Of a DNA stretch of 64,000 nt, positions 8,948-64,000 are shown piece by piece (position 1 is the first letter of the stretch; each line of letters starts with the position of its first letter). Source of the DNA: Centroberyx gerrardi (lineage: Eukaryota; Chordata; Actinopteri; Beryciformes; Berycidae). The notes beneath the pieces were generated by a model. The model made no database searches. It had not been told where the DNA came from and saw only the letters and a program-made list of their open reading frames with translations. Where the stretch lies: NCBI RefSeq assembly GCF_048128805.1, contig NC_136012.1, positions 7,510,121 through 7,574,120 of the forward strand. The letters run 5' to 3'. Both the position numbers and the translations under genes were made by a program.

Positions 8948-9148
8948 CGGTCCCCTTCCCCCTGGCCCACCGGCTGACCATGAAGGAGGTGTTTGACGCC
9001 GAGGGCCGGCCGCGGGTGGACCTGCTCAAGGCCCACCTCACCAAGGAGGGCCGGCTGGAGGAGGCTGTGGCCCTGCGCATCATTGACGAGGGCGCCGCCA
9101 TCCTGCGCCAGGAGCGCACCATGCTGGACATCGAGGCGCCGGTCACGG
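8948..9148 (+). CDS. ppp3ca-like: Calcineurin A exon 2 (N-terminal part of the catalytic domain)
   Basis: The acceptor is CCCTGCAG and the donor is GTACGG. The exon starts with the last two bases of an Ala codon and ends on the first base of a Val codon. It encodes [16 protein letters not shown] through IEAPVT. It is unusually GC-rich compared with the flanking introns. Confidence 0.93.
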
Positions 9149-62100: not shown

Positions 62101-64000
62101 CAGCAGTTCTGACAGGAGAGGGGAGGGCGGCGGCGTGGCCTTCTGGCTGATGAGCCTCTTCTGCGGGGAGTCATCTACTAGAGCGGCCAGGCCTCCGTCT
62201 TTGGGCCCTGCACCCGGAGGGTCCGCCGCAGGAAGGAACACTCCGACCCCCTGGGCCTGGCAGAGGAGGCAAAGACAGAAAGACACTGGTTGGCAGAGAG
62301 AGATGCAATTCCTGAAACAATTCTTTCAAACAGGAGCTGGGGTTCCCAAAAACACCTTAGTGTACGATCACATTTTTACATTCACTCACAATGAGACAAA
62401 GATGAAGTTGACAATAAGACACATTTATGGAGGTCACAGTCGAGTCACAGTTGATTTTGATCTCAGACTAGTATATAAATGACTACACTAAAGGAGTTTA
62501 AGTTGACTGAATACCTTGAGATTAAATTATATGTAATTGCCCCCACGCCCACTGTAGAGTGTGTGTCTGTTAACACATGTGGCACTTTGTAGCAGTGTTG
62601 GTTTGGGGTAATTTTGGTATTTTTTGGTAATTTGGGTAATTTTCAAGTAATTTCTGCCCCCAATTTGGTCCCAGTTTTGGTTCTGATGTTTGCTGCTAAA
62701 GCTGTCCTTATTTAAATACTTCATAACAATTAAATTCATTCTAAACAGTGGACCTATGCACATCTGTGCTTGGGAAAGCAGAATACCATATATATTTGTA
62801 ATACCACATTTGTCTATCAGTGGTGGCATTCTTCCTGTTGTGGTAGCCTACTGGTGATGAATGAACACAACAAAAACACTGGTGTGTGTATAAGTGTGTT
62901 CTTACAACATTGTGGGTGCTGGTGTCATCAGAAGCGGTGCTCCCTGTGTCCATGGGCGGCGTGGGGGCGGTGGAGTCGGCCTGGGAGTCCAGGCTGGGCG
63001 GGCTGGCACCCAGAGGAGAACGCACTGTTACACTGGGCAGGCGCTTAGGAGTATTTTTCACTGCCTGACGAGCTGGAAGGCACAGAGGGAGGGATGGATG
63101 GAAAGAAAGAAGGAAAGAAAGATTATTAAAAGGAACATACCAACATTTTGGCAAAGAAAACAGAAGTTAAAAGGTATGTAGATAAAAGTAAATCCCCAAA
63201 CGCCAAGCCATCAGATATACTTGGGAAATATTGAATAATTCACCAGTAGGTCTGAGCAGTGAGTGGACAGAACTTACCCTGGTATGCTGTCTCTGTGGCT
63301 TTCCTCTTCTGCTCCGCTTCCTCCTCATCCTGCTTCTTCTTTCTGGAGGGGGGGGGGAACACATTTTTTAACTGCCAATTTGAGCAGATGGCAGCCTAAA
63401 TGTTAGAGAGGTAGAATTATGACTTCCAGGTGTGAATGTGTGGAAATGTATGAACTGAAAGGCAGGCATTGCTGAAAATAAAATGTATTCCAGGAGGCAG
63501 ACTTAAAGTTTGTCAAGTAAGTGGGGAAAAAAAGCTTTGTCTGTATGTTGATGTTTTGTTGCTGTTTTGATTTGAAAACTGCTTTTTGCTTTGATTATAG
63601 TTTCATAGAAAATGTTGTACGTCATGCAGTAACTATCCAGTAATACATCAGTAATAAAATGACTAGTAACAGCAAACATAAAAACAAACAGGTAAGGGTC
63701 TTACAGCGTTATATCTGCCCACAGCTCCTTCAGCTGGGAGTCCATGTGACCCATCTGAATCAGATCCACCTCCTTCTTCAACTTCCTGTGAAGACAGAAA
63801 GCATTAGCAAGTTAAAGGCCACGTCTCACAGTCCTCAAAGGTCTTTCTTTGTGTGTGTGGTGTGTGCTTACCTGTACTTCTCTTGTGTGTCTCGCAGTAG
63901 TTTCTTCAGCTCCTCTATCCTCTCAGCAGTCAGTCTACGAACGATCACATCTTCAATGGTCTCTACCACCTCGCCCTTCTCGCCACGCTTACGCCTGGCA
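53075..64000 (-). CDS. brd8: Bromodomain-containing protein 8 (NuA4/TIP60 subunit), 5'-incomplete
   Basis: Subunit of the NuA4/TIP60 histone acetyltransferase complex. Fifteen exons in transcript order: 64000-63872 (partial), 63785-63705, 63342-63278, 63072-62906, 62256-62065, 61764-61671, 61363-61221, 60512-60074, 59979-59942, 59844-59645, 59161-59069, 58152-58084, 57816-57531, 54714-54670 and 53134-53075. All phases close. Visible parts are a charged coiled coil (RRKRGEKGEVVETIEDVIVR, EELKKLLRDTQEKYR), KNTPKRLPSVTVRSPL, a DELDLETVGDIIAIIEEKVD motif followed by AAVEAALSLCEE, acidic disordered stretches, and one bromodomain (KKAIMLVWRAAANH to QQFLATQLIM) with the acetyl-lysine-binding Asn in MYNSSDHDVY. 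It ends LKMKK, like the mammalian short isoform. The N-terminal exons lie beyond the window. Confidence 0.94.
53135..54669 (-). other. brd8: brd8 last intron
   Basis: AT-rich, with short GA-rich stretches (53,620-53,655) and an AATAAAGCATATTTGAATTG repeat-tail-like piece near 54,506. No second bromodomain exon is visible in any frame. Confidence 0.5.
54670..54714 (-). CDS. brd8: brd8 exon DSVPMASPAFLLSLF
   Basis: A 45-nt exon with acceptor CTCCTACAG and donor GTAAGT. It encodes DSVPMASPAFLLSLF, with one difference from the human DSVPMGSPAFLLSLF. Confidence 0.93.
55094..55491. mobile_element. hAT-like MITE with CAGGGTNCCCAC ends in brd8 intron
   Basis: It starts CAGGGTGCCCACCACGG and ends CCAGTGGGAACCCTG, the inverse of CAGGGTTCCCACTGG. 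The body carries CCATGACTTT and CCATGATATTCCAGGAA pieces typical of this fish family. CTATAC flanks both sides as a direct repeat. A related copy is at 58,197-58,457. Confidence 0.75.
55620..55760 (+). repeat. (ACAG)-rich simple repeat in brd8 intron
   Basis: ACAGACAG-type tetranucleotide repeats with AGAGAC interruptions. A similar CACA/ACAG-rich stretch lies at 54,960-55,085. Confidence 0.7.
56012..56705. mobile_element. MITE of about 690 bp with long inverted ends in brd8 intron
   Basis: The left end contains AAGTTTTTGGGAGATTGGCC and later ATCCATGTGTCCCTGGTAGA followed by TCATTGG. The right end contains the inverted counterparts, TGATCTACCGGGCACACATG and GGCCGATCTCCCAAAAACTT. Inverted similarity is spread over about 130-150 bp at each side. 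There is no open transposase frame. The calcineurin intron copy at 20,384 belongs to the same family. Confidence 0.8.
57501..57530 (-). repeat. brd8: G-quadruplex-capable run at the brd8 bromodomain exon donor
   Basis: On the transcribed RNA strand the intron starts GTGGGTGGGTGGGCTGGCTG and continues with GGTGGGCGGGGG, so five G-runs of three or more begin within 3 nt of the 5' splice site. Confidence 0.7.
57531..57816 (-). CDS. brd8: brd8 exon with the bromodomain C-terminal half
   Basis: The acceptor is CACCCCAG and the donor GTGGGT. It encodes PMDLSAIKKNIESGVIRTTA, EFQRDIMLMFQNAVMYNSSD (with the acetyl-lysine-binding Asn), HDVYHMALEMQRDVLEHVQQ and a linker ending GEPAEK. Confidence 0.95.
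58084..58152 (-). CDS. brd8: brd8 exon, bromodomain ZA loop
   Basis: The acceptor is GTCTCAG and the donor GTCTGA. It encodes YASVFLQPVSDDIAPGYHSI, then VHR. This is the ZA loop of the bromodomain. Confidence 0.94.
58197..58457. mobile_element. Degenerate copy of the MITE at 55,094 in brd8 intron
   Basis: It shares CTTTTCCATGACTTTCCATA, CTTCCATGACCTAAA and the CCATGACCAGTGGAAACC end with the 55,094-55,491 element. The left terminus is not recognisable. Confidence 0.6.
59069..59161 (-). CDS. brd8: brd8 exon, bromodomain helix Z
   Basis: The acceptor is GGGTTAG and the donor GTGAGC. It encodes STCGEDQEAVQAQKIWKKAI, then MLVWRAAANH, where the bromodomain begins. Confidence 0.93.
59645..59844 (-). 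CDS. brd8: brd8 exon, acidic YLSEVE/SSPASSS segment
   Basis: The acceptor is GCTTCCAG and the donor GTGAGT. It encodes EVKEEEAGSEGDPEEG, GEGPYLSEVE, SESEDGYG and DSLASSPASSSQ, matching the order of human BRD8 (YLSEMD, SESDDGF, SSPASSQF). Confidence 0.92.
59942..59979 (-). CDS. brd8: brd8 short exon (38 nt)
   Basis: The acceptor is TCCCACAG and the donor GTAACT. It encodes DSEDSSVSGKESK and fits phase 1 to phase 0. It is a short, serine-rich exon found mainly through phase logic. Confidence 0.75.
60074..60512 (-). CDS. brd8: brd8 large exon, disordered acidic region
   Basis: The acceptor is CCCTCCAG and the donor GTGGGT. It encodes VDDSVEALDAAAVEAALSLC, EEAVSGGHPLPGPWE and a long Glu/Pro/Ser-rich region ending EWSQPEPNPPCL. 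The first part aligns with the human DVAAVEAALSFCEE...LPGPWE. The remainder diverges. Confidence 0.9.
61221..61363 (-). CDS. brd8: brd8 exon with the ETVGDIIAIIE motif
   Basis: The acceptor is GTTTTCAG and the donor GTACGC. It encodes EGEAEAAVKVELAEETGL, then AVSYMGDELDLETVGDIIAI and IEEK. This is one of the best conserved BRD8 segments outside the bromodomain. Confidence 0.93.
61671..61764 (-). CDS. brd8: brd8 exon, Thr/Ala-rich
   Basis: The acceptor is TTATGTCAG and the donor GTAAAT. It encodes VAEGDSTASLTNGVQTATTA, then AALPTGHEVTT. There are no motifs; it is supported by phase fit to both neighbours. Confidence 0.8.
62065..62256 (-). CDS. brd8: brd8 exon, PPPSPLLSELLKK segment
   Basis: The acceptor is CTCTGCCAG and the donor GTGAGG. 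It encodes AQGVGVFLPAADPPGAGPKD, QKRLISQKATPPPSPLL, SELLKKVNVISASPRL. The SxLLxELL-type helix parallels the human LSRLLEAG region. Confidence 0.88.
62906..63072 (-). CDS. brd8: brd8 exon RQAVKNTPKRLPSVTVRSPL
   Basis: The acceptor is CCTTCCAG and the donor GTAAGA. It encodes RQAVKNTPKRLPSVTVRSPL, matching human RQAVKTPPRRLPTVMVRSPI, then a Ser/Thr/Pro-rich stretch. Confidence 0.93.
63278..63342 (-). CDS. brd8: brd8 exon KKKQDEEEAEQKRKATETAY
   Basis: The acceptor is CCCTCCAG after a poly-C run and the donor GTAAGT. It encodes a charged helix matching human KKKLEEEEAEVKRKATDAAY. Confidence 0.92.
63705..63785 (-). CDS. brd8: brd8 exon KLKKEVDLIQMGHMDSQLKE
   Basis: The acceptor is CTTCACAG and the donor GTAAGA. 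It encodes KLKKEVDLIQMGHMDSQLKE, then LWADITL, matching human RLKRDAELIQAGHMDSRLDE. Confidence 0.93.
63872..64000 (-). CDS. brd8: brd8 exon (cut by the window edge) RGEKGEVVETIEDVIVR
   Basis: The donor is GTAAGC; the 5' side is cut at 64,000. It encodes ARRKRGEKGEVVETIEDVIV, RRLTAERIEELKKLLRDTQE and KYR, a basic segment followed by a coiled coil nearly identical to human BRD8. Confidence 0.93.

Follow-up and report, generated by a model that had tools for sequence, protein, structure and literature searches.

A calcineurin A gene beside STING and BRD8 in a fish genome: a very likely fourth ohnologue on the 5q31 side

Ciclosporin and FK506 act on calcineurin A, which is regarded as a family of three genes. 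Human has three PPP3C genes: PPP3CA (4q24), PPP3CB (10q22) and PPP3CC (8p21). Which of these, if any, corresponds to a calcineurin A gene that lies next to STING, a REDD gene and BRD8 in a fish? We analyzed the 64-kb stretch that holds these four genes (hereafter the window; C16:7510121-7574120 of the 779-Mb assembly G000). A preliminary description had proposed that the window keeps 5q31-side copies of calcineurin A and REDD that mammals appear to have lost. Exon, domain and structure-sequence matches bore out the presence of all four genes in the window. We consider it very likely that the calcineurin A gene is the fourth (5q31-side) ohnologue from the two rounds of early vertebrate genome duplication (2R), accompanied most likely by a fourth REDD ohnologue.

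The calcineurin A gene lies on the + strand (8948-26180) and its 13 exons found form a single open frame of 503 residues from AVPFP, with AG at 13/13 acceptors and GT at 12/12 donors. The start of the first exon found and the lengths of the calcineurin A and REDD products (503 and 206 residues) were as first described. A narrow DRVVK-type pattern did not locate the start-codon exon, either in the window or in the preceding 10 kb. The exons are:

8948..9148, +, first exon found, starting AVPFP (exon assembly, PDB match)
11570..11694, +, exon with GDIHGQ and GDYVDRG (Metallophos 1.5e-9)
13386..13497, +, exon with LRGNHE
15384..15529, +, exon
16581..16720, +, exon
18713..18790, +, exon
19519..19613, +, exon
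20086..20211, +, exon with the PxIxIT groove and the start of the calcineurin B helix
21890..21967, +, exon
22481..22565, +, exon with the calmodulin-binding segment and KMAKMF
22959..23056, +, exon
23834..23881, +, small exon of 48 nucleotides
26002..26180, +, last exon, with the autoinhibitory segment and the stop

Long CT-rich tracts lie directly ahead of two of these exons (18100-18690 and 22760-22950, +), and similar CT-rich repeats are present on many G000 contigs. A pyrimidine-rich DNA query against G000 gave 334 matches; among the matches listed, nearly all were repeat and one was a real exon on C11.

We wondered how many calcineurin A genes this fish has. A protein search of G000, in which 85 of 108 first-look candidates were scored, found five: the window gene on C16 and four others.

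C11:15.826-15.848 Mb, calcineurin A of the window type (protein search)
C23:14.683-14.719 Mb, calcineurin A, ppp3ca (protein search)
C8:6.250-6.269 Mb, calcineurin A, ppp3cc (protein search)
C2:29.070-29.083 Mb, calcineurin A, ppp3cc (protein search)

Elsewhere in G000, no match exceeded 61% identity. Viral contigs, scanned for calcineurin relatives, yielded none. No ppp3cb was found among the scored candidates, although two ddit4 genes are present (C20 and C15); ppp3cb may have been lost in this fish or may be missing from the assembly.

The window gene is a conserved member of the family. Its best PDB match was 9b9g, whose PPP3CA-based chain was matched twice (1271 bits), followed by human PPP3CA (1aui, 998 bits) and PPP3CB (4or9, 976 bits). 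In the window gene, 9/9 catalytic and metal residues (PPP3CA numbering) and 20/20 residues of the PxIxIT and LxVP/FK506-ciclosporin A (CsA) grooves were identical to PPP3CA, and all 29 active-site and docking positions checked were also identical in PPP3CB and PPP3CC. The calcineurin B helix, the calmodulin-binding segment and the autoinhibitory segment are all present. From these conserved residues, the product is likely to be a calcium/calmodulin-activated calcineurin catalytic subunit. Across 9 of the 11 exon blocks (the last two exons were not entered), the window and C11 genes differ by a nonsynonymous rate (dN) of 0.018-0.026 and a synonymous rate (dS) of 0.89-1.04, a dN/dS of 0.02-0.03. 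Thus, both genes are under strong purifying selection.

Two regions set the window and C11 genes apart. The calmodulin segment of the window gene carries three changes relative to human PPP3CA, two of which (RV to KM) are common to C11: it reads KMAKMF, versus KMARVF in all seven rows compared besides these two genes. The small exon measures 48 nucleotides in the window and 51 on C11, versus 30 in the fish ppp3ca gene on C23, 27 on C8 and 10 residues in human PPP3CA and PPP3CB; no counterpart was found in the C2 calcineurin A gene. Judged from sequence, calmodulin dependence could be shifted by the ARVF to AKMF change and by 6-7 additional residues in the linker that precedes the autoinhibitory segment.

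To which lineage do the two genes belong? We built a tree from the five fish proteins (exon translations), human PPP3CA, PPP3CB and PPP3CC, and fly CanA as the root, using 491 of 518 columns (27 with more than two gaps were dropped) under Q.insect+G4. The window and C11 genes formed a clade of their own (support 100/100). The C23 gene grouped with human PPP3CA (97/98), the C8 and C2 genes grouped together (99/99) and were joined by human PPP3CC (98.5/98), and human PPP3CB grouped with the PPP3CC group (95.6/95). The approximately unbiased (AU) test rejected the window-C11 clade as sister to PPP3CB (0.0032), as sister to PPP3CC (0.0032), inside PPP3CC (1e-6), with fish ppp3ca on C23 (0.012) and with human PPP3CA (0.0064). 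It retained only placements outside the three groups, with the clade as sister of A, of B+C or of the three combined. Placement tests under LG+G4 agreed. Before missing exons were added, the corresponding AU values were 0.025 (sister to B), 0.0275 (sister to C), 6e-6 (inside C), 0.0047 (with C23) and 0.0047 (with human A). With seven rows, omitting PPP3CC and fly, the separate position was again preferred (AU 0.99) and four alternatives were rejected (0.015-0.021). Thus, the window gene did not nest inside PPP3CA, PPP3CB or PPP3CC, one of the outcomes named beforehand as fatal to the proposal, although the stricter Shimodaira-Hasegawa (SH) test rejects only the placement inside PPP3CC.

Human PPP3CA has the same domain plan as the window protein and is 87.5% identical to it, versus 84.8% for PPP3CB and 80.4% for PPP3CC. 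At 10 sites the window protein has the PPP3CA residue where PPP3CB and PPP3CC share another. The mixture of PPP3CA and PPP3CB residues noted at the outset proved real: where the two human proteins differ in gap-free columns, the window protein has the residue of A at 29 sites and that of B at 15. Unlike PPP3CA, it lies outside the PPP3CA clade by AU test, has a 48-nucleotide small exon instead of 10 codons, reads AKMF, and is linked to STING and BRD8.

We then compared the surroundings of the two genes. The order on C16 is cxxc5-ube2d2-calcineurin A-STING-REDD-brd8 and on C11 cxxc5-calcineurin A-brd8. CXXC-type exons precede the first calcineurin A exon found on both chromosomes, by about 40 kb on C16 (at C16:7478511) and about 32 kb on C11 (at C11:15794277), and the C11 exon has what we take to be the CXXC5 form. 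A UBE2D2-type gene (C16:7493505-7499448) lies just upstream of the window, 20-26 kb before the first calcineurin A exon found; its ELNDLARD and KTDREK are presumably residues of UBE2D2, not UBE2D3. Neither this gene nor the CXXC5-type gene on C16 figured in the preliminary description. No UBE2D exon was present on C11 among the matches listed. BRD8 has two copies in G000, on C16 (in the window) and on C11, where it ends 15-17 kb after calcineurin A. The C11 interval between the two genes holds no convincing STING or REDD remnant (the best REDD-like match, E 0.010, spans 34 residues, contains an internal stop and was not counted). C16 also carries egr1 (86/88 residues to EGR1), etf1 and the best CTNNA1 match. 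Because cxxc5, calcineurin A and brd8 are linked on two chromosomes, there was no recent translocation, and the fish-specific translocation first entertained as an alternative is weakened.

On human chromosome 4, PPP3CA lies at 102.2, SLC39A8 at 103.4, UBE2D3 at 103.9 and CXXC4 at 105.6 Mb according to the matched part of PMC6071118 (Table 1), and the matched text of PMC2837036 places DDIT4L at 4q23. As far as these excerpts go, human DDIT4L-PPP3CA-UBE2D3-CXXC4 parallels fish REDD-calcineurin A-UBE2D2-CXXC5 on C16: the neighbours of human PPP3CA are paralogues of the neighbours of the window gene, in matching order. Four adjacent gene families that keep one order across a pair of paralogous chromosomes are the mark of a genome duplication; a later insertion would not give such an order. 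On the 5q31 side, a sheep chromosome 5 list excerpted from PMC6568386 runs EGR1, ETF1, HSPA9, CTNNA1 ... DNAJC18, TMEM173, ECSCR, UBE2D2, CXXC5, PSD2, NRG2; this list, in its printed and possibly incomplete order, shows no calcineurin or REDD gene. At human 5q31.2, TMEM173 single-nucleotide polymorphisms (SNPs) lie near 138.86 Mb and a UBE2D2 SNP at 138.92 Mb in the matched part of PMC7591719.

Taken together, the separate clade, the AU tests, the STING/BRD8 and UBE2D2/CXXC5 flanks, and egr1, etf1 and CTNNA1 on C16 support the proposal that the window calcineurin A is the 5q31-side ohnologue. Linkage and tree depth suggest its 2R origin. The cxxc5-ube2d2-calcineurin A-REDD block would then have its 2R sister on human chromosome 4, in CXXC4-UBE2D3-PPP3CA-DDIT4L. 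The block would have been copied in a later duplication, most likely that of the teleosts, after which C16 kept calcineurin A, STING, REDD and brd8, and C11 kept calcineurin A and brd8. Mammals would have kept STING1, UBE2D2, CXXC5 and BRD8 at the locus and neither calcineurin A nor REDD; the published gene lists, as far as excerpted, and the three PPP3C genes of human suggest that calcineurin A was lost there.

The REDD gene was less firmly placed. It consists of two coding exons (49775-51136) that encode 206 residues, and carries the Pfam domain RTP801_C (1.8e-38, 131.5 bits; cut-off 27), as do DDIT4 and DDIT4L (REDD1 and REDD2).

49775..49952, +, REDD coding exon 1
50694..51136, +, REDD coding exon 2, with the RTP801_C domain and the stop

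We found four REDD genes in G000: the window gene and those at C23:14.7416, C20:7.842 and C15:16.148 Mb; the C23 gene is a ddit4l that lies 22 kb from ppp3ca. In a REDD tree, C23 grouped with human DDIT4L (87/84), C20 and C15 grouped with human DDIT4 (99.6/100), and the window gene stood apart, with 31-42% identity to the five other REDD rows. A position inside DDIT4 was rejected (AU 0.001). The window gene forms a third lineage in this tree, but its separation from DDIT4L is not significant. Of the two genes proposed as kept 5q31-side copies, calcineurin A thus stands on both tree and linkage, whereas for REDD a ddit4l duplicate was not rejected, and its status as a fourth REDD gene rests on linkage. 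On that linkage, it is probably the fourth REDD ohnologue and the partner of the window calcineurin A. Pieces of a non-LTR (long terminal repeat) retroelement, with endonuclease and reverse-transcriptase frames, lie just upstream of REDD (46003-49098, +; Exo_endo_phos_2 3.6e-8, RVT_1 7.7e-24).

Several observations weigh against a fourth 2R lineage. The window-C11 clade was placed, weakly, on the PPP3CA side (69/61). By SH test only the position inside PPP3CC was rejected (0.003) and the other placements scored 0.12-0.18 (sister to B 0.118, sister to C 0.118, with C23 0.18, with human A 0.17); with seven rows none of the four alternatives was rejected (0.09-0.14). The window REDD grouped with a DDIT4L row was likewise not rejected (AU 0.175 and 0.094). 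The C8-C2 pair has a dS of 3.6 (Nei-Gojobori method, NG86) versus about 1 for the window-C11 pair, so the two pairs may differ in age; a single teleost duplication behind both pairs would require conversion or unequal rates. The CXXC5-type zinc finger on C16 has clearly diverged further than its C11 counterpart but keeps NCEQC. An EGR gene on C11 matches EGR1, EGR2 and EGR3 alike (80/90 residues), and we set aside its naming as egr1b. A pseudogene, LOC642262, lies between human TMEM173 and UBE2D2, the interval that holds calcineurin A in the fish (matched part of PMC7591719). The comparisons cover one fish and human. PPP3CB is represented by the human row only because ppp3cb was not found in the assembly. 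The human PPP3CC, fly CanA and DDIT4L rows and the marker-gene queries were provisional sequences. The human PPP3CA and PPP3CB rows are PDB chains 1aui and 4or9, which stop 7 and 5 residues short of the C-termini used, those last residues being provisional too.

Could the window and C11 genes instead represent a teleost ppp3cb that came to lie on a chromosome of the 5q31 type, so that there is no separate fourth lineage? We judge this improbable. No other ppp3cb was found in G000, six sites of the window protein agree with human PPP3CB alone, and databases may use the name ppp3cb for the window gene. However, the sister-to-B placement was rejected by AU test (0.0032; 0.020 without the PPP3CC and fly rows), if not by SH, and on each of two chromosomes the gene is bracketed by CXXC5 (with UBE2D2 on C16) on one side and BRD8 on the other. 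C20 carries ddit4 and an EGR2-like gene (87/88 residues); C15 carries ddit4, a weaker EGR2-like gene (79/88) and MCU, of which a second copy lies on C3. Because of ddit4 on both, the EGR2-like genes and MCU on C15, we took C15 and C20 as 10q22-type, and neither showed a calcineurin A among the scored candidates.

Even less probable is that the ppp3ca-ddit4l block was duplicated in ray-finned fish only and its copy placed next to STING and BRD8. PPP3CA is indeed the closest human protein, and the window REDD is closest to ddit4l (47%), a relationship that the REDD tree does not reject. Yet grouping with fish ppp3ca was rejected (AU 0.012, and 0.015 with seven rows), and fish ppp3ca on C23 is 91.8% identical to human PPP3CA, whereas the window protein is only 85.7% and 87.5% identical to the two. 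A later insertion would also not give flanking UBE2D2 and CXXC5 genes arranged like UBE2D3 and CXXC4, their paralogues. With C23 plainly ppp3ca-like and the AU tests against it, we rejected the window and C11 genes as copies of ppp3ca. The idea that the window gene is one of the fish ppp3cc duplicates, raised at the outset, can be practically dismissed, although zebrafish has genes named ppp3cca and ppp3ccb (matched part of PMC11464004): those duplicates correspond to C8 and C2, which join human PPP3CC, and the window gene inside PPP3CC was rejected by both AU and SH tests.

The fourth-ohnologue reading would supply the missing fourth member of the 4/5/8/10 paralogon. It would also provide a clear example of gene loss at a locus where STING1, UBE2D2 and CXXC5 remained in place. 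With a fourth ancient isoform kept twice and no ppp3cb found, calcineurin comparisons between fish and mammals (regeneration, immunity) may pair the wrong paralogues. A bolder idea, which we hold only tentatively and from sequence features, is that the first jawed vertebrates possessed four calcineurin A genes, one of them (the fourth) being a separate isoform that responds to calcium in its own way (altered calmodulin segment, longer linker), still linked to STING and REDD in ray-finned fish and perhaps sharks and absent from mammals. If so, fish would have a calcineurin isoform missing from mammals and from every mammalian immunosuppressant study. Among the matches listed, no paper described a fourth calcineurin A gene in vertebrates (gene databases and most subscription journals were outside the scope), and the matched text of a paper on the RCAN family (PMC3896409) does not treat PPP3C evolution. 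The window gene is probably annotated in gene databases under some name.

The two remaining genes of the window are:

31208..37142 (outer limits approximate), +, STING gene (C-terminal domain, STING_TM pieces)
53077..64000 (lower limit approximate), -, BRD8, scattered exons (bromodomain 1.9e-15), running on to about C16:7574964

An N-terminal piece of BRD8 was located outside the window, using provisional sequences for the ends of human BRD8. The joined C-terminal pieces of STING matched solved STING at 7.6e-35, and its two STING_TM pieces scored 27.8 and 22.8 bits, both under the 28.1 cut-off. Between STING and REDD lies an element of the long interspersed nuclear element (LINE) type (38971-39978, +; 335-residue open frame, RVT_1 6e-15). 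The STING tail (36825-37139, +) reads LMFS at the pLxIS site, where the human motif presumably reads LLIS, and extends past the PLR motif.

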